From Pontiella agarivorans (GTDB lineage Bacteria; Verrucomicrobiota; Kiritimatiellia; Kiritimatiellales; Pontiellaceae), in assembly GCF_034531395.1 (NCBI RefSeq), contig NZ_JARVCO010000007.1:1-64000 (forward strand): 64,000 nucleotides of DNA, in the 5' to 3' direction. Shown here one piece after another: positions 5,130 through 19,532 of the stretch. Below the pieces are notes generated by a model. The model was not told the origin of the DNA and did no database searches. It was given only the letters and a program-made list of their open reading frames with translations. The position numbers were made by a program, and so were the translations under genes. Numbering within the stretch: the first letter of the stretch is position 1; each line of letters starts with the position of its first letter.

Positions 5130-5247
5130 TATTCTGATACGATTTAGGTTTTCTTTTCCGCGTCTTCGGCCTTTTACCTTCTTTTTGCTTTTTAAACCCG
5201 GCCATTGATTGCAGGATTTTCCATTCCTACAACAAAAGGACTGGAAT

Positions 5248-6570
5248 TTGAGGGCGGAGCAGATACTTACACTGGATATCGGGACGGACGGCATTCGTAT
5301 GGCTGTCGTTTCGGTTCCGTCGTCCGGACCGCCGCAGCTTATTGATTCCGGGTTTGCAGTGTACGACGCTGAGTCGGCGCTGTCGAAAGATGCGATCACA
5401 GCGATGACGCTCCGGAAGCTGCTGGAGGAAAAGAAGCCTGGCGTGAAACGCGCTGTGGTGTCCATTGAGGGCCCATCGGTTTTTTCCCGGCTGGTGAGGC
5501 TTCCAAAGGTTGGAAGGGAACGGGTGCCGCAGACGATCCGCCATGAAGCGGTGCAGAATATTCCGTTTCCGATTGATGACGTTGTGTGGGATGCTCATGT
5601 GGTTGATCCGGATTCGGATGGCCCGGAAGTGCTGTTGGTGGCCGCGAAAGCGGAGCTGATTGACGGCCTGGTGCATGCGGTAAAGGCGAATGGACTTGTT
5701 ATTGAACGGATCACAGCGGCACCGGTTGCGCTGGCGAATCTGGCGCATGCGTGTTGCGGGACATCCGGACCGATGCTGCTGGTTGATGGCGATACGGTAT
5801 CCACTAATCTGGTATTTATTGACGGCCGCCGTGCGTTTTTTCGATCGCTCCCGGTTTCGGGAGCGGATGCGTTGCGCAGACAGCAGGAGATCGAACGCTC
5901 CATCGCATTTTATACCGGCCAGCAGGGGGGACGGGCACCGGAAAAGATTGTTGAACAGGTTGGGGGCGTTGAGCAGGGTTTTGCGGTTTGTGTCGGGTTG
6001 GCCTGTTTGCCGGTGGTTGAGATTGATCTTGTGCCGGCCGCTTTGGCAGATGAGCGCAGAATGCAGCGGCGTCTTCCGCTATGGATGGCGTCGACTGTGG
6101 TGGTGATGCTGATTCTGGGGGTATGGATTTTTTCGCTTGGTCGGCGGACTGACGCGATCCGTTCCAATACAGGGCCGATTGAGGCCGAGGTTTTCCGGTT
6201 GCGGAATTTTGAGCAACAGCTTCTGCCTTTGGAGGCGGAGGTGGATGCGTTGTTGGAGCGTGGCCGTGAGTTCCGGCATGTGGCCCGTGCGCGTACGCAA
6301 TGGCTTGAGGCACTGACTGAAATGAGCCGACTGCTGCCTGAGGGGATGTTTCTGCTGGGGAGTGAACCGATTGAAAACGGTGTGCGGATTTCGGTGGTGA
6401 GTTATCTGGATAAAGAGATGCCCGGACAGGATTCAGTGAAGCTGTTGCGCGATGCGTTGCGGGCCAGCCCCCTGTTCAGTGATGAAACGAAGGTGGAGAG
6501 CCGTCCATCTAAAAAAGAGTTTGCGCGCCGGTTTGTGCTGGATGTCTATTTCGAGGGGGATGTGTCGTGA
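5248..6570 (+). CDS. PilM-PilN fusion of a pilus-like system (Amuc_1101-like)
   Basis: About 440 residues from TTG 5248, chosen because AAAGGA (5235-5240) sits at the right distance and the protein then opens directly on the actin-like ATPase motif ILTLDIGTDGIRMAVV. A TTG at 5209 is in frame but has no ribosome site. Residues 1 to about 265 are PilM-like and cytosolic. A single membrane segment follows (about 275-297), then a coiled stretch and a PilN/GspL-like periplasmic domain. PilM and PilN are normally separate and dock to each other; here they are one chain, as in GspL. It overlaps the next gene by GTGA. A copy of the dispersed palindrome lies at 5501-5515. Confidence 0.85.
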   Translation: MRAEQILTLDIGTDGIRMAVVSVPSSGPPQLIDSGFAVYDAESALSKDAITAMTLRKLLEEKKPGVKRAVVSIEGPSVFSRLVRLPKVGRERVPQTIRHEAVQNIPFPIDDVVWDAHVVDPDSDGPEVLLVAAKAELIDGLVHAVKANGLVIERITAAPVALANLAHACCGTSGPMLLVDGDTVSTNLVFIDGRRAFFRSLPVSGADALRRQQEIERSIAFYTGQQGGRAPEKIVEQVGGVEQGFAVCVGLACLPVVEIDLVPAALADERRMQRRLPLWMASTVVVMLILGVWIFSLGRRTDAIRSNTGPIEAEVFRLRNFEQQLLPLEAEVDALLERGREFRHVARARTQWLEALTEMSRLLPEGMFLLGSEPIENGVRISVVSYLDKEMPGQDSVKLLRDALRASPLFSDETKVESRPSKKEFARRFVLDVYFEGDVS

Positions 6571-7532
6571 ATCTCCGGGGCCGTAAACGACTGCTGACAG
6601 TTGGGGGAATCTGTACGGTAATTCTTGTGACGGAGCTTGTGCTGCTGCTGATACAGGGGATTCAGTTGTCCTTGGCACGCAATAAGTATGCGGAGCTTTA
6701 CAGAATCCGGGAACGCCTGGTGCAACGCGATCCTTTTCCTTCGGCCGGTAATGTGAAACGGATCGAAGAGCATTTAGACGAGCTGGCGTATCACGTCGGT
6801 GAGCTGGCCGGTGAGCTGAATCGCGACCCTTTTCCTGTGGAGGCGTTTGAGGCGGCAGAATTTTCAGCGCAGACGCAGGGAATGATTGAGCGTTTTCGCG
6901 AAAAAGCGGAGCGGGCAGGCGTAAAGCTTCCGGACGGGCTGGAAGCCGGATTCGGACGCTATGCGAGCGGGGGTGCAGTGGCTGATCCCGACCAGGTGCC
7001 GCGATTGACACGGCAGCTTTATTCGGTCGAGCGGGTGGCGAATGTGCTGGTGGAAGGCGGAGTGCATTCCATAACGGCCATGGCACGTGATGATTTTGAA
7101 TTTGCAAAACAGGAGGCTCCGCGCCGCCGCAGGCCTCGGAATTTTTCAGAGTCTGAAGGGTTGATGCGTGAGCATGAGGCTGCCCGGGTCGGGCCCGGCA
7201 GGCTTTACTCTGTGGAGCGGATTCGCGTCACTTTTACTGCAAAAGAGACGGCCGTATGGCGGGTGTTGCAGGGCTTTGCACAGGCGCCGCATTTTATGCA
7301 GGTTTCGGCGTTCGGTCATCGGACGCTCACGGAGATCATGCGCTACAGTCCGGCTGCTGTTAAAGGGGGGCGGGAAAGTGATGATGAAACGCTGAAATAT
7401 CTCGCGGAAGGAGTTCTTACCGGGGAAAAGGCGCTTTCGCGCCCGGAGCGAATCATTGCGGGGGATGATTTGGTGGAAGTCGCGCTGACGGTTGATGTTT
7501 ATAATTTCAATCTGGAGGGCATGGAGCAGTGA
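6567..7532 (+). CDS. PilO-like pilus protein (Amuc_1100-like)
   Basis: A 321-residue bitopic membrane protein: short basic N-terminus, one membrane helix at about residues 9-29, then a coiled coil (30-95) and a periplasmic domain. Position between the PilM/PilN fusion and an Amuc_1099-like gene, size and layout match Amuc_1100-type pilus-like proteins, which are PilO-like. In type IV pilus machines PilN and PilO form the alignment complex linking the cytosolic motor to the secretin. It starts at GTG and overlaps both neighbours by 4 bases, so the three genes are tightly coupled. Confidence 0.8.
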   Translation: MNLRGRKRLLTVGGICTVILVTELVLLLIQGIQLSLARNKYAELYRIRERLVQRDPFPSAGNVKRIEEHLDELAYHVGELAGELNRDPFPVEAFEAAEFSAQTQGMIERFREKAERAGVKLPDGLEAGFGRYASGGAVADPDQVPRLTRQLYSVERVANVLVEGGVHSITAMARDDFEFAKQEAPRRRRPRNFSESEGLMREHEAARVGPGRLYSVERIRVTFTAKETAVWRVLQGFAQAPHFMQVSAFGHRTLTEIMRYSPAAVKGGRESDDETLKYLAEGVLTGEKALSRPERIIAGDDLVEVALTVDVYNFNLEGMEQ

Positions 7533-8455
7533 GTGCGTTGCGACAGATGAAATTGAATTTTGATTGGCTGCTGTTTGGGGGCCTGCTGACTGTGCTGTTG
7601 CTGTCCTGTGGAATTGCTTTTACGAATGAGGCCGCCGAAGTGCCTGTGGCGGTTGAGCGGGAGGCGCCGCTGCCGAAGTTCCAGCCTCCGGAAGATGTAA
7701 AAATCGCAATGGATGGAGTAGGGAGGCTTTTCACGGGTTCGCTTCGGGTTGTGGCGGTAGGAAGCGCGTATCCTATTCCATACGAGGCGAAGGTCTGTCC
7801 CTTTTCCAATATTCCCCAGCCTGGACTTGATCAGCTGGACCACGATGGGGACGGCATGACCGATGACTGGGAGAAGAGATTTGGGTTGGATCGATATAAC
7901 AAAGCGGATGCTTTAAGCGATGCGGATGGAGATGGGTTCACAAATCTGGAGGAGTTTAAGGCATCCACCGACCCGCTTCTGGCCGCGATTCACCCTCCGT
8001 ATGCCGGAAAATTACGCTTTGTTGAAAGAAAAGATATTGATTTTCCACTGGTTTTTCAGGGGTTCATGGAGCAGTCGGACGGAACCATCATATTTCAGCT
8101 GAATAACCCTTCAACCGGTAAATCACATTTTGCCGCCATCGGGGATGCCGTGGAACATGTTGTTTTACAACGATTTAAAATGGATGAAAACGGACGTGAT
8201 CATAGGCTTTATGTGATGCGCGACGGGATTGAAATTGAACTGCTGCGCGGAAAAACCGCGTTGGACCCAGAAAGTACAGCAGAGTTGATTAATATACTTG
8301 ATCGCACCCCGATAATAGTTACTATGGGCGCGTTATTATCTTTGCATAATGATAAGTACACCGTTCTTGGTGTGTATGCCGACAGGGTACTCCTGAAGGA
8401 TACTGCATCCGGAGAAGTGTACGACATTGTCGGTTTTACCGGCGGAGACCGTTAG
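7529..8455 (+). CDS. Amuc_1099-like pilus-system protein with calcium-binding repeat
   Basis: A 308-residue envelope protein with a membrane anchor near residues 12-32. Residues about 105-150 hold two Asp-rich thrombospondin-type-3/EF-hand-like loops (DHDGDGMTDDWEKRFG and DADGDGFTNLEEF), which would bind calcium. The rest resembles PilP-like periplasmic linker proteins that touch the secretin (inference from position and size). It starts at GTG in a GTGA overlap. A perfect 13-bp inverted repeat, TTTCCTAAGGAAA, follows the stop (8459-8471). Confidence 0.75.
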   Translation: MSALRQMKLNFDWLLFGGLLTVLLLSCGIAFTNEAAEVPVAVEREAPLPKFQPPEDVKIAMDGVGRLFTGSLRVVAVGSAYPIPYEAKVCPFSNIPQPGLDQLDHDGDGMTDDWEKRFGLDRYNKADALSDADGDGFTNLEEFKASTDPLLAAIHPPYAGKLRFVERKDIDFPLVFQGFMEQSDGTIIFQLNNPSTGKSHFAAIGDAVEHVVLQRFKMDENGRDHRLYVMRDGIEIELLRGKTALDPESTAELINILDRTPIIVTMGALLSLHNDKYTVLGVYADRVLLKDTASGEVYDIVGFTGGDR

Positions 8456-8572
8456 TGGTTTCCTAAGGAAATGTTATAGGGTGACTGTTTGTTGGTAAAT
8501 GCTCTCCGTGGACCCTGGTGAACTTGCGGGTAAAGTGGCATTTGTAATATGAGAAGTAGAGGGGAAGGAAAA

Positions 8573-10723
8573 ATGACTAAAACCTATATCTCGTCTCTAT
8601 TGGTTGCGTTGGTAGCAACACAATCAATCCGAGCCCAGGAAAGTCTGGACGACGTATTCGCGCAGTTGGACGCGGCTCAGGGAGGGACTGAGCAGGCTGC
8701 ACCCGCAACAGGCGCTCCGGCACCTGCAGCAGTTAATACTGCACAGCCCGCAGCGGTAGAAACTGCACAGCCGAAAGCAGTCAATGCTGCACCGGCAATG
8801 GTTGAGGAAGACCTGTTTGCAAAAGGACTAAATGCTTATAACTCGGGCGATTTGGTTCTGGCGGAAGCAATCTTTGAACGTGTTCTGGACGAAGATCCTT
8901 ATAATCGTCGTGCCATGGAATATCTGAAACGTACGGCCCAGAAAATTGCAGCCAACGAACTTGCACTGCAACGTGCCAGTCGTGCGCAGGCATTAGCCGA
9001 AGTTGATGGTGCGTGGAATCCGGATGTCACCATTCCGAAAGTCGGTATTCCGGATGAAGAAGGACCGGAACTCGATCCGAAAGCTGTTGCGATTGCGGAA
9101 ATGACTGCGAAGCTGGAACAGATTTCCATCCCGAGTCTTGACTTCCGTGAAGCTAACATCAAAGACGTGGTTCTTTTCCTGACTGAAACTGCCCGCCGGC
9201 AGGATCCCGCAAAGCAGGGTGTGAACATTCTGCTGATGGGTATGGAAAACTCCATGGCGGCTGATGCAAACAACATCACCATTTCCATCCGCGATATGAG
9301 CCTGCTGGAATCCCTGCAGTACATCGTGGAAATGGCATCGCTTAAGTTTGATGTTCGTGAAAAAGCAGTGGCAATCATGCCGGTCAATTTTGTTCCGGCT
9401 GAAGACCTCAAGCTGATCACGTACGATGTGATCCCTGAAGTGGGTGCTGAACTTGAATCCATGGCTGGCGGTGGCGGTGGCGGTGTTGACGATCTGTTCG
9501 GCGACGCTTCCGCATCAGAATCCACCGGTCCGACCGATGTTGCTGAATTTTTCTCCATTGTTGACTGGCCGGAAGGATCTTCTGCTGTATATCAGCCGAA
9601 CTTCCACAAGCTGTTTGTCAAGAACACGCCGAAAAACCTGGATGCAGTTGAAGAAATTCTGAACGACCTGGAAGACGAAGCGATCAACAAACGTTCGCAG
9701 CAGGTGGCAATCGAAGCCAAATTCGTTGAATACAACGAAGGTGCTCTCGAAGAGCTCGGATTCAACTGGACGCTCTATGATGACGGAACATTTGGTGGTC
9801 TGAGTTTTGCTGATGAAAATACGAAAACTTTCTATCAGCCGGGTCAGGGACCGACTTCGTCTACTACGTTGCCGGGTGGCGGAACGCTTTACAGCAATCC
9901 GACAACTGGATACACGACCATTGACAGCTCCACCGGTACCGGTCAGAGTCTGTTCGGTTCGAATCAGCGCAACAACAGCACTGCTTTTGAAGCTATGCAG
10001 TCCGGCATTCTGTCCACGATGGGCGGCGCTCCGGCTGAGATGATTCTGAGTAATACTTCCAGTTTCCCGTTCGATCTGGCGATTTCCGCTATGGAACAGG
10101 AAGGTACTGCTGACGTATTGCACGCTCCGAAAGTCACCACCAAATCCGGTAGCCCGGCGGTTATCCGCGTGGTTGAAGTTCACCGTTATCCGCAGGATTA
10201 CGATGTGGAAACCGGTCAGCGTACTGCTCCGGTTGTTAAACCACAGGACTGGGAAGATTATGACCTCGGTGTTGTTCTGAACGTCACGCCGGTGGTTGAT
10301 GCGGAAGCGAGCACCATCGACCTTGATCTTCAGCCGGAAATTAAGAAATTTGTCGGATTCGACAACTACACCGCTGGTTATAACGCTTATGAGTCGGGCG
10401 ATAGCAACAACACGGAGATTTTTGGTAACAGTGCTCCGTTGCTGATTCAGATGCCGTATTTCGAAACCCGTGCGATTGAAACACAGGTTACAGTTGCCGA
10501 TGGTGAAACCATCGTTATGGGCGGTCTTGTCAGTGAAGAGACTGATACGTTCCGTGATCAGGTTCCGTTCCTGGGTGACATTCCTTACATCGGTCGTCTG
10601 TTCCGTTCAGAAGGTTCCCGTACAACCAAGAAAAATCTCGTAATCTCTGTGAAGGCTACGATGGTTGACGATAAAGGTCTGACCCGCGAACAGCGTGAGC
10701 TTCAGCGCCAGGCTGCTAACTAA
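8573..10723 (+). CDS. Secretin (PilQ/GspD family, Amuc_1098-like)
   Basis: About 716 residues from ATG 8573, which has a strong AGGGGAAGGA site and opens on a signal peptide (MTKTYISSLLVALVATQSIRA). An Ala/Pro-rich linker (about 45-75) and one or two TPR-like helical pairs (80-120) precede the N domains (about 180-390). A glycine run near residue 300 and an acidic loop interrupt these. The C-terminal secretin pore domain ends with the hallmark VPFLGDIPYIGRLF. It forms the outer-membrane channel of the pilus-like system. No PilB, PilT or pilin gene is in the window. It sits 117 bases after the preceding gene, so it may have its own promoter. Confidence 0.93.
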   Translation: MTKTYISSLLVALVATQSIRAQESLDDVFAQLDAAQGGTEQAAPATGAPAPAAVNTAQPAAVETAQPKAVNAAPAMVEEDLFAKGLNAYNSGDLVLAEAIFERVLDEDPYNRRAMEYLKRTAQKIAANELALQRASRAQALAEVDGAWNPDVTIPKVGIPDEEGPELDPKAVAIAEMTAKLEQISIPSLDFREANIKDVVLFLTETARRQDPAKQGVNILLMGMENSMAADANNITISIRDMSLLESLQYIVEMASLKFDVREKAVAIMPVNFVPAEDLKLITYDVIPEVGAELESMAGGGGGGVDDLFGDASASESTGPTDVAEFFSIVDWPEGSSAVYQPNFHKLFVKNTPKNLDAVEEILNDLEDEAINKRSQQVAIEAKFVEYNEGALEELGFNWTLYDDGTFGGLSFADENTKTFYQPGQGPTSSTTLPGGGTLYSNPTTGYTTIDSSTGTGQSLFGSNQRNNSTAFEAMQSGILSTMGGAPAEMILSNTSSFPFDLAISAMEQEGTADVLHAPKVTTKSGSPAVIRVVEVHRYPQDYDVETGQRTAPVVKPQDWEDYDLGVVLNVTPVVDAEASTIDLDLQPEIKKFVGFDNYTAGYNAYESGDSNNTEIFGNSAPLLIQMPYFETRAIETQVTVADGETIVMGGLVSEETDTFRDQVPFLGDIPYIGRLFRSEGSRTTKKNLVISVKATMVDDKGLTREQRELQRQAAN

Positions 10724-13808: not shown

Positions 13809-15776
13809 ATGAGTATGCGGTTGTTTTTTGGAATATTGCTGTTCGGGATGCTGTGCCGGGGCGAGACCTATGAGCAGTTGAACGCGCAGCTCAAAAATGC
13901 CGCTGAAAAACAAGTGATTCACCGGCTGAAATCACAGATCGCCGGTGCCGCTTTACAACGGTTGGAAACCGAAACCCTCTCGAAAAAGGATCAGCAGGCT
14001 TTGCGAACACAGGTTCGGGCTTATTGCGCTGATGTGCAACTGGGTGCGATGGATGTCTGGTACGGTGAGAGTGTTGTAGCCTGGGGACGTTTACTGCTGT
14101 TCGATGGAAAATGGGAGGAGGCTCGGGTGCAGTTGCTGGATCAGGCTGAAGTGCTGCAGAATATAGAGCGGAATCTGAGGGCCAATGCTATTCCGGTTTC
14201 ATCGGTCAGTCCCGTGGCGGGATGCCGCTATGTGCTGGGCGAAACGTATCGCGTGGAATATGAAACGTTCCAGACTTTGGAACCGGCCGTTGAAGCGCTT
14301 CGCCATTTCTACAATGTCTACATCAAATACAGTGACAGCCCCTGGGGAGAGAAGGCCCGGGTTAAAGCCGAATCGATGCAGGCGGAACTTGAACGGCATG
14401 GTAAACAGGTGCGGATCGATCTCGGCCCGCATAAAGATTCATTTATCGCTGCCAAATTCAGGCTGGGATCTAAATACATGGCCGAGGGACGGTATGCCGA
14501 TGCGGTCGAACCGATTGAAACGGCCATCAACTATTTTCCGGAAACCGTAAAATCTGTTCAGGCACTGCGCAATCTGGCGGTCTGCAAACAGGAACTCGGG
14601 GAGGCCGATGAGGCCTACATGATTGCTGAATACTGCTGCGAGCGTTTTGCGGCCGACACTAACGCCCCGCTGGCGGTGCTGAGTCTGGGCCGTCGCGCAG
14701 TGGATGCCGGAAATGAAGAGCAGGGCGAACAGCTGTTCAATCTCTATCTGGCCTCTTTTCCGGAGCATGAAAAACGGGCGGAGATTTTTTCGTGGTTTGC
14801 ATGGCGTGCCTTTAAATCGGATGAAATGAAAAAGGCTATGCCCTTTTTCCAATCGCTGGAAACGGAACTTCGGCGTATCGGCGAGACTGGAGAGCGGTTG
14901 GAAAAAGCGGTTTATCTGCAGGCGGTCACTCCGCCCGATCCAGAAAAGCTTGATGCATTTATTGCGGAATTTTCCTGTTCAGAACGGGTGGCTTCGGCGT
15001 TGAGCGAAAAATCACAGGCGCTTTTGGTCGCGGGTGATTTCGAGGGTGCGTTCCAGACGCTGGAAAAACTGAAGTCTGAATTTCCGGAGGCCCCGGCTTC
15101 CAGAAGAGCGCTGGCCGGACTCATTGTTGCGGCAGTTGAGGCCGGGCGGTTCGATGTTGCCGAACGGGTGCTTGGCCGTATGCTCGAAGATCAGGATGAA
15201 TATGGTCCTGACGTTTATCTGGCAACGGGGGAAGGCCTGTTGTCGGCTGAACAGTTTGCGCTGGCGGAAAAAGCGTTTGCAGCGGTGCCCGATGATGAGC
15301 GTGCTGTGTTTGGAACGGCAGCCTGCAAATTCGGCGGCGCAGATTTTGAAGGAAGTTTCCAGGCCTTGGAAAACCTGCTCGCGGACTTTCCGGGCACTGG
15401 AAGCTTTCATGATGCGCGGCTGATGCAGGCGCGCTGTCTGGTTGAACTGGGCCGGACCAATGAAGCGGTGGCGGCGTATGCGGATGCGGGGCGTGATTAT
15501 GCGGTGACGCTGGAGATGGCGGGAGTGCTTTCGGATCCGGAAGAACGGCTGGCTGCCTATCAGCGTGTGGCGTTGCTGGCTGATCCGAAAGCGGAGGGGC
15601 ATCGGCCGTTGATTGCTGAAAGCATTCTGCAGAGTCTGCCGCTTTGTCTGGAACTTCGTAAATATGATCTGGCACTGGCGGCCTGTGATCAGTTTGAGAC
15701 GCTGTTCCCGGAGCACGGTCAGCTTCCGGCCATTGAAAATTTCAGGAAGGAGGCGGAACGTGCGTCGGCTGATTAG
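13809..15776 (+). CDS. Periplasmic TPR-repeat protein of the ExbB/ExbD operon
   Basis: 655 residues: a short signal peptide, then helical repeats throughout. TPR-like pairs such as FRLGSKYMAEGRYADAVEPIE, GDFEGAFQTLEKLKSEFPEAP and DFEGSFQALENLLADFP point to a long solenoid scaffold in the periplasm. It opens an operon with a smaller TPR-like protein, ExbB, two ExbD and a toroid protein, so it is likely a partner of the energised complex. Four exact copies of the dispersed palindrome (14268, 14847, 15051, 15357) each encode an FQ(T/S/A)LE helix segment. ATG 13815 is an alternative start. Confidence 0.8.
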   Translation: MSMRLFFGILLFGMLCRGETYEQLNAQLKNAAEKQVIHRLKSQIAGAALQRLETETLSKKDQQALRTQVRAYCADVQLGAMDVWYGESVVAWGRLLLFDGKWEEARVQLLDQAEVLQNIERNLRANAIPVSSVSPVAGCRYVLGETYRVEYETFQTLEPAVEALRHFYNVYIKYSDSPWGEKARVKAESMQAELERHGKQVRIDLGPHKDSFIAAKFRLGSKYMAEGRYADAVEPIETAINYFPETVKSVQALRNLAVCKQELGEADEAYMIAEYCCERFAADTNAPLAVLSLGRRAVDAGNEEQGEQLFNLYLASFPEHEKRAEIFSWFAWRAFKSDEMKKAMPFFQSLETELRRIGETGERLEKAVYLQAVTPPDPEKLDAFIAEFSCSERVASALSEKSQALLVAGDFEGAFQTLEKLKSEFPEAPASRRALAGLIVAAVEAGRFDVAERVLGRMLEDQDEYGPDVYLATGEGLLSAEQFALAEKAFAAVPDDERAVFGTAACKFGGADFEGSFQALENLLADFPGTGSFHDARLMQARCLVELGRTNEAVAAYADAGRDYAVTLEMAGVLSDPEERLAAYQRVALLADPKAEGHRPLIAESILQSLPLCLELRKYDLALAACDQFETLFPEHGQLPAIENFRKEAERASAD

Positions 15777-16419
15777 CGTTGTTTTATGGCTGTCCTGTTC
15801 GGTGCATGCCGCTTATGTGGTGAATAACGCCGGGCGGAAGATTCCGGGCTCGGAAGTTTCGGCAACGGCTGACGGACGGGTGACGCTGAAGACGCCGGAT
15901 GGTCAGATGATGGTGTTTCAGAAAGGCCAGTACAAACGTGCGGTGGCGGACCGGCCGAAGGAGCTGGATATTGCGGAACAGCTGATCAAAACAGGACAGG
16001 GAGAAAAAGCGGTTCCTTTTCTGCAGCAGGCGAAAAAGAAGTGCCGTTTTCTGCAGTGGGATCAGACTGCAATTCAGATGCTGGCTGACTATTACTTTAT
16101 GACGGAGCAGTACGGGTTGGCGGCTGCAGCGTTTCAGGCATTGGACGATCAGTCGATTCCGCAGAACCGCCGGCGTTTGCGTGAGGCGATGGTGAAAAGC
16201 GGAGAGATGGAAACCGTGTTGCAGGTTTTTAATGAGGATATCCGCAATGGATCTCGGGAAGCGGCGGCGCAGGCTTATCTGATGCGCGGGAAGCTGAAGG
16301 CGGAACGGGGGGACCCGGAAGGTGCGCGGCGGGATTGGCTGAAGGTGAGTTTGTTTTTCAGAACGCAGGAGGCGGCGGCTGAAGAGGCGGAGCAATTATT
16401 GAAGGAGAATGAAGGATGA
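15760..16419 (+). CDS. Small exported helical-repeat protein
   Basis: 219 residues from GTG 15760, chosen because AGGAAGGAGG (15744-15753) precedes it and the product begins with a signal peptide (MRRLISVVLWLSCSVHA). Residues about 20-60 look like a small beta domain (GSEVSATADGRVTLKTPDGQ) and the rest like TPR-type helices. It overlaps the end of the large TPR gene by 17 bases and the exbB start by 4, so it is embedded in the operon. No named family is evident to me. Confidence 0.75.
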   Translation: MRRLISVVLWLSCSVHAAYVVNNAGRKIPGSEVSATADGRVTLKTPDGQMMVFQKGQYKRAVADRPKELDIAEQLIKTGQGEKAVPFLQQAKKKCRFLQWDQTAIQMLADYYFMTEQYGLAAAAFQALDDQSIPQNRRRLREAMVKSGEMETVLQVFNEDIRNGSREAAAQAYLMRGKLKAERGDPEGARRDWLKVSLFFRTQEAAAEEAEQLLKENEG

Positions 16420-17156
16420 AACGGGTGATTGCGGTTTTACTGATTGCCGGAAGTGCGGTTTTTGCGCAGGAGGCGGAGATCGTGAAAAGTGAAGCGGTGC
16501 AGGCGGCCGAGGCTGCGCCGGAAGAGGTTTCGGGATTTCTGGATGTGGTGAAGGGCGGGGGAGCATTCGGCATGGTGCTGTGGCTCGGTCTGGCCGGGCT
16601 GTCGTTGGCGGCCGGTACGCTGATTGTTGATTCGCTGCTCAATATTCAGGAAAAAAAGATTATTCCGAAGACGCTGGTTTCTCTGGTGCGGGAAGCGATT
16701 GAAGAGGGCAGTCTGAAAAAGGCCGCGCAGCGCTGCCGGGATGTGCCGGGGCCGTATTCCAATATTCTGCTGGCCGGTTTTGAAAACCTGGACGACGGGT
16801 TTGATCAGGCTCAGGAAGCCATCGGTATTGCGGCCGACATGGAGAGTGAAAAAATGCTGCAGCGGGTGAATTACCTGAATGTGGTGGGGAATCTCGCGCC
16901 GATGCTCGGGCTGCTCGGTACGGTGCAGGGAATGATTCTGGCATTCGCCACATTGGGGACGACGTCCGGAGCGGCAAAGAATGCATTGCTGGCGATCAAT
17001 ATTTCCCAGGCGCTTTATACAACGGCTGCCGGGCTCGTTATTGCCGTTCCGGCAATCGGGGCCTATTTCTTTTTCCGTAATCGCGCGGCCAAGGTGATTC
17101 TGACGATGGAAAGCCTGACCATGGAGGTGATGAAAGGACTGAAAAAGAAAAGGTGA
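16416..17156 (+). CDS. ExbB/TolQ/MotA-family proton channel
   Basis: 246 residues with an N-terminal signal-like segment and an Ala/Glu-rich stretch, as in many PVC and Bacteroidota ExbB proteins. Three membrane helices follow (about 45-72, 150-180, 195-220). The family signature GNLAPMLGLLGTVQGMILAF sits in the second helix and TTAAGLVIAVPA in the third. It forms the pentameric stator that uses the proton motive force with ExbD. The two ExbD genes and a TonB-like gene follow directly. Confidence 0.93.
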   Translation: MKRVIAVLLIAGSAVFAQEAEIVKSEAVQAAEAAPEEVSGFLDVVKGGGAFGMVLWLGLAGLSLAAGTLIVDSLLNIQEKKIIPKTLVSLVREAIEEGSLKKAAQRCRDVPGPYSNILLAGFENLDDGFDQAQEAIGIAADMESEKMLQRVNYLNVVGNLAPMLGLLGTVQGMILAFATLGTTSGAAKNALLAINISQALYTTAAGLVIAVPAIGAYFFFRNRAAKVILTMESLTMEVMKGLKKKR

Positions 17157-17178
17157 AACCCGGCACCTGATACGTGAA

Positions 17179-17619
17179 ATGAAAAAGCGATTCCAGAATA
17201 AGGGAAACGGCGGAATCAACATGACGCCGATGATTGATGTGGTTTTCCAGATGATCATTTTTTTCGTCTGTACTGCGCAGCTTGAACGGGAACAGTTTTC
17301 GGAATGGATCAATCTGCCCGATTCGCCGAATGCACCGGAAATCGCACAGGAGAAGGATCCGCGCACGATCACGATTGAGGTGGATGAAAAGGGTAAAATT
17401 ATGATCGGCCGAACAGCACTGTCGCTTTCCAGGCTTCGGATGATTCTGAAAAAGACGGTTTCCGACTATGGCGTGTACGGACCTTCAATTCCGATCCGGA
17501 TTCGGGCGGATGCAATGTCGCAGCATTCCAATGTTCGGAATGTCATGGATGCTTGTACTGAATCGGGGCTCTATAAAATTGCGTTCATTGCGGTGAAGGA
17601 TTCAGCTGATAAAAAATGA
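17179..17619 (+). CDS. ExbD/TolR-family protein (first)
   Basis: 146 residues with one membrane helix at about 14-34 containing the signature MTPMIDVVFQMIIFF and the proton-carrying aspartate, followed by a periplasmic domain. It differs from the second ExbD in the periplasmic part, so the channel may hold a heterodimer inside the ExbB ring. It starts 22 bases after exbB and overlaps the second exbD by 4 bases (ATGA). Confidence 0.93.
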   Translation: MKKRFQNKGNGGINMTPMIDVVFQMIIFFVCTAQLEREQFSEWINLPDSPNAPEIAQEKDPRTITIEVDEKGKIMIGRTALSLSRLRMILKKTVSDYGVYGPSIPIRIRADAMSQHSNVRNVMDACTESGLYKIAFIAVKDSADKK

Positions 17620-18035
17620 TGAGAGGGAAAAAACAGAGGCGGTTTGTGGGGACCGATGCTGAAATCGAAGTGTCAATGACGCCGATGATTGATGTGGTGT
17701 TTCAATTGCTGATCTATTTTCTGGTGACGTTCAGTACGGCGGAGGTGTTGTCGTTTCTGGATATTTCAAGGCCGGCACCGGATGCTGCGCAATCGCAGCA
17801 GCCCCCTGCAGATATGATCAGAATCGGAGTGTTCGGCAAGGGAGTTGCGATTAACGGCCGCGAGGTGAGCGACGAAGAGTTAAGCCGTTTGGTGGCGCGG
17901 TTGGCTGCGGTGAGCAAAAAACAGACGGTACTGGTGAATTGTGCCGATGAATCGCTGCATGGCCGGCTGATTAATGTGCTGGATCTCTGTGCGGAAAACG
18001 GGCTGACGCAGATTGCAGTGATGAGCGGGAAATAA
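17616..18035 (+). CDS. ExbD/TolR-family protein (second)
   Basis: 139 residues with the same architecture: MTPMIDVVFQLLIYFLVTF membrane helix with the key aspartate, then a periplasmic domain (ADMIRIGVFGKGVAINGREVS). Paired ExbD genes occur in other systems with separate loading and driving roles. It is followed immediately by the toroid gene, its stop codon abutting the next ATG. Confidence 0.93.
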   Translation: MMRGKKQRRFVGTDAEIEVSMTPMIDVVFQLLIYFLVTFSTAEVLSFLDISRPAPDAAQSQQPPADMIRIGVFGKGVAINGREVSDEELSRLVARLAAVSKKQTVLVNCADESLHGRLINVLDLCAENGLTQIAVMSGK

Positions 18036-19532
18036 ATGAGCGCTAGGCGGAACAGAAAGCGGGGCCGGGTGCGGATCAGTGGAGCGCTGATTTCGTTCGT
18101 ACTGCATGCGGGGATCATTCTGCTGCTCGTGAAGGTGCTGGTTTTCCGGGCACCGAAGGAGGAGCGGGCGATCGATGTCCGGGTGGTTGAGCATCACATT
18201 CAGGAGCAGGAGCATGTTGAAAAAGAGAAGCCGGTTGAAGAGCAACCGGCGGGCGAAGAATCTATGGAGGCACCGGCGGAGGTACTGCCTGAGGAGACAT
18301 GGACACAAGACTCCATGCTGGAGTCGGAACTGGACCTGAGCGGTCTGGATGCTGTGGCGAATCTGGAAAGCCCGCTGGTGCTGAAAGGGTTAATGGTGGG
18401 GCGTTCGGAAACAGCCCGCCGGAAAATGCTTCGTGAATTCGGGGGAAGATATGGAAGTCAGGCCGAGAAGGCCGTACTCAAAGGTCTGGATTGGCTGCAG
18501 AAAAATCAGCGGGAGGACGGGGCCTGGGGCGTGGGGAACAGTCGGAGTATGACGGCGAAACAGGAGCGGGCGCGCCTGACCGGTCTGGCGTTACTGTGTT
18601 ATCTGGCGCATGGAGAAACGGCGCAGTCGGAAAAGTACGGGGAAACGGTGCGGCGCGGGATTCAGTATCTGCTGAATGAACAGAATCAGAAGAGCGGCAG
18701 TTTTGTTCCTTTCTCAAAAACGGTGGGCTCGCATGATGATATTGGCGTTTACGGGCATGCGATTTCTACGTATGCCCTTTGTGAAGCATATGCGATGACC
18801 CGCATGCCGATGTTGAAAGAACCGGTGGAAAAGGCGGTGAAGCTGATTGTAGACGGGCAGCAGAAAAAGGGCGGATGGGATCATCGTTATCAACATGAAA
18901 AGTGGAGCGATCTGTCGGTCGGCGGCTGGCAGGTACAGGCCTTGCGGGCAGCACAGGCCGCGGCTGTTTCAACTCCGGGAATTCGCGCGGCGTTGAAAAA
19001 ATCGGTTCCGTTTGTTCAGGGGATGCATGCCGGTGAGGGGAAATTTTATTATCGGTTGGGCAACAAAACTCCGAACGGCGATCTGGATTATATGACCGGC
19101 GTAGCGGTACTCTGCATGCAGTTGGCGGGCAGCAACGAGGTGGCAGAGGTGAAAGCCGGGCTGGAATATCTTCGTGATGCAGAGTGCACCGACTGGGATG
19201 AGGGCTGGGAAAAGACCGGCAGAAACAAGAGTTTCAATATTGCGTATGAGTGGTATTACAACACGCAGGCGATTTTCCAGAAGGGGGGCTCCAAGTGGCA
19301 GAGCTGGAACAACAAGTTTGCGCCGATGCTGATTAAAGCACAGGACGATTCCGGAGCCTGGAAGCCGCCGTCGGAAACGGATGGAGCACTGACCAAGGAC
19401 ATCATCTACACAACCGAATTCTGCTGTCTTTCGCTGCAGGTGTATTACCGCATACTGCCTTCATTCAAAAAGGCCGTCCTGAAAGAACGGCCCTTTGAAT
19501 TTGAAAACGATGTGAAGATTACGGTGCGCTGA
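18036..19532 (+). CDS. TonB-like anchor fused to a terpene-cyclase-like alpha/alpha-toroid domain
   Basis: 498 residues. Residues 15-40 are a TonB-type uncleaved membrane helix (ISFVLHAGIILLLVKVLVF with its histidine), followed by a Glu/Pro-rich stretch (about 45-95) like the TonB linker. There is no TonB C-terminal domain. Instead residues about 140-485 carry QW-type repeats of the squalene cyclase/prenyltransferase toroid (GLDWLQKNQREDGAWG, VDGQQKKGGWDHR, IKAQDDSGAWK). The DxDD motif of squalene-hopene cyclases is not evident, so it is more likely a binding module than a cyclase. Position after exbB-exbD-exbD implies the membrane helix is driven by that channel. Confidence 0.82.
   Translation: MSARRNRKRGRVRISGALISFVLHAGIILLLVKVLVFRAPKEERAIDVRVVEHHIQEQEHVEKEKPVEEQPAGEESMEAPAEVLPEETWTQDSMLESELDLSGLDAVANLESPLVLKGLMVGRSETARRKMLREFGGRYGSQAEKAVLKGLDWLQKNQREDGAWGVGNSRSMTAKQERARLTGLALLCYLAHGETAQSEKYGETVRRGIQYLLNEQNQKSGSFVPFSKTVGSHDDIGVYGHAISTYALCEAYAMTRMPMLKEPVEKAVKLIVDGQQKKGGWDHRYQHEKWSDLSVGGWQVQALRAAQAAAVSTPGIRAALKKSVPFVQGMHAGEGKFYYRLGNKTPNGDLDYMTGVAVLCMQLAGSNEVAEVKAGLEYLRDAECTDWDEGWEKTGRNKSFNIAYEWYYNTQAIFQKGGSKWQSWNNKFAPMLIKAQDDSGAWKPPSETDGALTKDIIYTTEFCCLSLQVYYRILPSFKKAVLKERPFEFENDVKITVR

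Follow-up and report, generated by a model that had tools for sequence, protein, structure and literature searches.

The six genes at 13809–19532 of the window (the whole 64,000-nucleotide stretch analysed) probably encode a proton-driven motor of the Ton/Tol type, built around a hetero-ExbD pair and fitted with an arm that ends in an alpha/alpha toroid. All six lie on the + strand and overlap, abut or nearly do so; in order they specify a long TPR protein, a short TPR-like protein, ExbB, two ExbDs and the toroid protein P0006 (Table 1). From N- to C-terminus P0006 comprises a basic N-terminus, a TM helix, a D-box-like strand, a Glu/Pro linker and the toroid. By its anatomy and its conservation the motor-plus-arm reading is well supported; our literature search for toroids together with ExbD or ExbB found no description of a toroid arm.

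In the machine that we propose, ExbB would form the channel ring, with ExbD1 and ExbD2 as its two-subunit axle or stator. P0006 would be the transducer: its S-x3-H helix would pack on ExbB, its D-box-like strand would be gripped by the ExbD1/ExbD2 pair, and its linker would carry the toroid across the periplasm, there to engage a target as the TonB C-terminal domain otherwise does. The two secreted TPR proteins are likely periplasmic or outer-membrane partners of the force-transferring complex that these subunits would make up. Because P0006 was searched for the TonB_C domain and gave no Pfam match to it, we class the system as a variant of the Ton/Tol kind and not as TonB.

Table 1. Features of the cassette in the window and of related loci elsewhere (L numbers denote fetched loci, each with its own coordinates).
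Feature	Coordinates	Strand	Details
tprA	13809..15776	+	655 aa; Pfam TPR families; conserved cassette gene 1
tprB	15760..16419	+	219 aa, secreted; weak TPR-like repeats after a short N-terminal segment
exbB	16416..17156	+	246 aa; PF01618 (MotA_ExbB), E 3e-26
exbD1	17179..17619	+	146 aa; PF02472 (ExbD), E 2.4e-24; membrane Asp20
exbD2	17616..18035	+	139 aa; PF02472 (ExbD), E 9.9e-20; membrane Asp26
Toroid arm P0006	18036..19532	+	498 aa; SQHop_cyclase_C, E 4.1e-14 (Pfam)
P0006 TM helix, residues 16-36	18081..18143	+	S20-x3-H24, the TonB S-x3-H spacing
P0006 D-box-like strand IDVRVVE, residues 46-52	18171..18191	+	fits the published TonB D-box pattern
P0006 Glu/Pro-rich linker, residues 53-110	18192..18365	+	putatively periplasmic, from sequence
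P0006 conserved SPLVLKGLMVGR segment, residues 112-123	18369..18404	+	precedes the toroid; 30 homologs
P0006 predicted single alpha/alpha toroid, residues 137-475	18444..19460	+	six hairpins by helix order
Paralogous cassettes, same genome	L209 2059-8866; L208 1018-6356; L210 2680-8700		
Stand-alone anchored toroids on viral contigs	L175 7917-9506; L176 7818-9557; L180 7983-9515; L182 8001-9431; L185 7467-8984		

A first-pass annotation had described an ExbB and two distinct ExbDs preceded by two periplasmic TPR-type genes. The motor part of this description holds, with Pfam returning MotA_ExbB once and ExbD twice and the two ExbDs falling into separate clades (see below). Of the TPR pair, tprA, whose product has a signal peptide by eye and would be a secreted TPR protein, matches TPR families outright; for tprB the Pfam TPR matches are sub-threshold only. 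The best start of tprB is a GTG at 15760, which overlaps the tprA stop, and its N-terminal pattern is seen again across loci. Upstream of the cassette, at 5209–10723 of the window, a PilM-like protein, two more proteins and a secretin stand in one run, resembling the layout described for MUL2. These pilus/secretin genes were considered as part of the system and are placed outside it, since only the closest relative, of those whose stretches were read, retains the linkage.

The residues expected of a proton-driven motor are in place. In an alignment to TolQ, T169 and T203 of ExbB – a protein with a signal-like N-terminus – match the conserved proton-path threonines, and both are invariant in 29 of 29 cassettes; the position equivalent to E. 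coli E176 is Q here and varies between cassettes. The membrane aspartate of ExbD is invariant in all 57 sequences (29/29 ExbD1 and 28/28 ExbD2). A quick tree resolves an ExbD1 clade (26 rows, SH-aLRT 97) and an ExbD2 clade (25 rows, SH-aLRT 89), from which the ExbD pairs of families f40 and f48 fall apart. The cassette ExbBs likewise form one clade (34 rows, support 99/96), with the f40/f48 cassettes outside. In most cassettes ExbD1 and ExbD2 are thus inherited as separate lineages.

One ExbB-type with two ExbD-type subunits is also the layout of AglR, AglQ and AglS, a modular motor that moves complexes interacting with surface polysaccharide (PMC3858216, PMC9389320), and TPR proteins are natural scaffolds. 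The cassette might be read in the same manner, as an Agl-Glt/Nfs-like surface transport system that drags an envelope complex for gliding, adhesion or polymer movement; we nonetheless think this unlikely, as Glt/Nfs partner genes are missing from the operon and the conserved cassette is self-contained. Small, too, is the probability that we give to an envelope-integrity device of the Tol-Pal kind, whose toroid arm would, as the cell grows or divides, pull on partners in the outer membrane or the peptidoglycan. The best solved-structure match of ExbB is TolQ, the SHLS helix motif is common to TonB and TolA, TolA also has a D-box-like sequence (PMC10907165), and tprA includes a YbgF-like TPR stretch that scores under the cut-off of that model. 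However, the operon has neither Pal nor TolB, elsewhere in the genome a further ExbB-type gene stands beside one that is, by eye, Pro-rich and TolA/TonB-like, and some genomes of the genus gave no toroid match.

In TonB the D-box is the strand just past the anchor, of alternating hydrophobic and polar residues, that is recruited by the ExbD dimer (PMC10907165). The TonB-type helix and Glu/Pro linker that the first reading had recognized in the last gene are joined by the S-x3-H spacing and by a strand that fits the D-box pattern, and the anchor of P0006 appears on these grounds to be of TonB type. S-x3-H occurs in 36 of the 45 ExbBD-linked toroid proteins as against 8 of 191 control ORFs (other ORFs with an N-terminal helix) and 6% of shuffles; for the strict D-box pattern the corresponding figures are 25/45, 25/191 and 7%. 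On these counts the enrichment in linked arms is strong for S-x3-H and moderate for the D-box pattern. Among 41 unlinked cellular anchored toroids, S-x3-H occurs in 22 and the strict D-box in nine; some lineages that still have the cassette have lost S-x3-H. Residues 40–110 of P0006 are poorly conserved (1.27 bits/column), and in the SPLVLKGLMVGR segment S112, P113, G118 and R123 are each conserved at 93–100% across the 30 homologs.

The C-terminus of P0006 is predicted to be a single alpha/alpha toroid occupying the place of the TonB domain, as had been proposed from the sequence. An AF2 model of residues 100–498, computed from 19 sequences in a toroid-only alignment to which viral-contig homologs were added, gives a toroid and not a standard TonB C-terminal domain (pLDDT 79.7, pTM 0.84); a first model from eight close sequences was dropped (pLDDT 44.7). 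The best PDB structure match is squalene-hopene cyclase 2sqc (VIA-align Z 25.9, rmsd 3.0 over 287 residues), and the toroid family profile also matches squalene-hopene cyclases in the PDB. Many other alpha/alpha barrels, sugar enzymes included, score 22–24 in VIA-align, and GH76 and sugar epimerases are among the structural neighbours. With the six hairpins and the inner and outer helices assigned from helix order, the inner helices are the more conserved (2.56 vs 2.01 bits/column).

The SQHop_cyclase_C domain, these neighbours and the conserved inner-helix residues are what would be expected if the toroid were an enzyme – a cyclase, a lyase or a glycosidase – that is simply anchored close to the motor. 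We consider this very unlikely: the catalytic DxDD, a search for which had been suggested at the outset, is absent from P0006 by reading and occurs in only 9 of 95 anchored toroids, there is no CGEQ, and the anchor motifs would require a different reason. Given that DxDD is not conserved and that there is no thioester motif, a cyclase activity has no specific support, nor has the lipid or hopanoid role that had been floated for the toroid.

Cassettes of six genes were seen first in relatives within the class and afterwards phylum-wide. The exact order TPR-TPR-ExbB-ExbD-ExbD-toroid recurs at 39 loci in 23 families of the phylum, a number of occurrences and not a rate, the loci having been fetched as toroid-query matches; the gene order survey that had been called for thus bears the arrangement out. 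So many loci of identical order, together with the excess of S-x3-H in linked arms, place the co-inheritance of the cassette beyond chance. A toroid profile search gave a match at E ≤ 1e-40 in 146 of 289 genomes. In the Planctomycetes there was a single match, on a plasmid, at 28.7% identity. At two loci (L066 7798-15579 and L067 2563-8998) several genes of the cassette are split between frames, through sequencing error or decay. Other TPR-ExbB-ExbD-toroid arrangements, featuring a 1280-aa toroid protein or additional TPR genes, are found at L074 1453-9559, L077 3-14143 and L080 8428-17999.

The orphan and viral-contig toroids without nearby exbB or exbD could be taken to mean that the cassette order is a relic of history and that its arm is uncoupled from the motor; this is highly improbable in the face of the same order in 23 families and of the enrichment of TonB-type anchor motifs among linked copies. 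About half of the sampled cellular anchored toroids are not beside exbD, and homologs away from any ExbB/ExbD context – named by the first-pass annotation as a point against its reading – do exist, as paralogs and on viral contigs. Many of them retain the anchor and might be driven by a motor in trans, and they therefore leave the cassette standing.

The genome is that of a marine bacterium, with Pontiella and other Kiritimatiellales as closest named relatives, and at the search threshold it has P0006 in a single copy. Other loci of this genome encode three TonB_C proteins (PF03544) and four TBDT plugs, so that P0006 is not its only transducer of TonB type. There are also three more TPR-ExbB-ExbD-ExbD cassettes, each with a second TPR-like gene; one has an adjacent S-x3-H arm of 427 aa with a non-toroid C-terminus (P0007), the other two no adjacent arm. 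A search for P0007-like proteins gave 16 matches here and as many as 29 in relatives, most of which cover just the N-terminal part. Twelve loci of orphan P0007-like arms were fetched and four arms compared at full length: those of L212, L215 and L217 include a stretch that is VWA-like by eye, and that of L214 (620 aa) does not. The label is tentative, since Pfam returned VWA_3 below its cut-off for L212 (E 0.00022) and nothing for L217. At the six of the twelve loci whose neighbour genes were scanned with Pfam (L212, L216, L217, L219, L220 and L222), these include a sulfatase, alpha-L-fucosidase or GH2. For nine of the 15 orphan arms of this genome a sulfatase lies no more than 10 kb away (p 0.013 for random positions, 0.12 when contig-matched); as the proximity is not significant in the contig-matched comparison, a link to polysaccharide loci is no more than suggested. 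For the six-gene cassette itself, the distance to the nearest listed sulfatase is ~480 kb.

IMG/VR scans revealed toroid proteins on viral contigs; none was found in an annotated phage collection. The flanks of nine such loci (L175, L176, L177, L179-L183 and L185) gave no match to exbB or exbD. PHROGs, which covered five of the nine, identified flank genes for a major head protein (L175), a baseplate wedge subunit (L185), NrdD (L176) and dCMP deaminase (L182), and at L180 nothing beyond a family of unknown function; the phage nature of the other four rests on IMG/VR. Together the paralogous cassettes, the non-toroid arms and the stand-alone viral toroid arms suggest a modular class of motors.

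Family f40, genus g62, looks Akkermansia-like. One of its genomes (G084) has three tandem toroid genes (L135 10675-15609) in a fetched stretch with no exbB match. An exbB-exbD-exbD-TPR locus, with a TPR protein of 1108 aa and no adjacent toroid, is found elsewhere in this Akkermansia-like genome (L160 2566-9284); its ExbB groups, weakly, with the cassette clade. This locus may be MUL1 of A. muciniphila. MUL1 has been described as Sus-like (PMC13174399), and mul genes are required for glycan accumulation (PMC13174399, PMC12928651).

As to what the toroid-armed motor does, our leading guess, a weak one that has indirect support only and that we hold to be less likely than not, is that it imports or handles large glycans. 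A broader picture, and a rather doubtful one, is that PMF motors consisting of ExbB, a fixed ExbD1/ExbD2 pair and TPR scaffolds serve the Verrucomicrobiota, with swappable arms, for polymer import beside or instead of SusCD/TBDTs, and that some phages of the phylum bring arms of their own with which to use or block them. Uptake of large glycans by this phylum is poorly understood, and the toroid-arm motor is a concrete phylum-wide candidate. The cassette also bears on a stated question, namely whether two ExbD/MotB-type subunits act as a heterodimer in such motors (PMC9389320). If the reading is true, the head of TonB is exchangeable for an unrelated fold.

Four known systems invite comparison. 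P0006 shares its predicted alpha/alpha toroid fold with the C-terminal domain of squalene-hopene cyclase, from which it differs in being a single toroid, in having no DxDD and in sitting on what would be a membrane-anchored transducer. Tol-Pal (TolQ-TolR-TolA), which includes a TPR partner, CpoB/YbgF, is like the cassette a PMF motor with a transducer helix of SHLS type; in contrast, neither Pal and TolB nor the C-terminal domain of TolA was seen in the operon, and its arm is toroid-headed. To our knowledge no toroid is known from the Myxococcus AglRQS motor with Glt/Nfs, and the Glt/Nfs proteins are not in the six-gene operon. AglRQS does, like the cassette, combine one ExbB/MotA-type with two ExbD/TolR-type subunits, and its outputs are modular (PMC3858216, PMC9389320). 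TonB-ExbB-ExbD is set apart by the toroid that ends the arm in place of TonB_C, and by the two ExbD lineages and two TPR genes that the cassette adds in an operon without a TBDT; the two systems nevertheless have in common ExbB, ExbD, an S-x3-H anchor helix, a D-box-like strand and a periplasmic linker.
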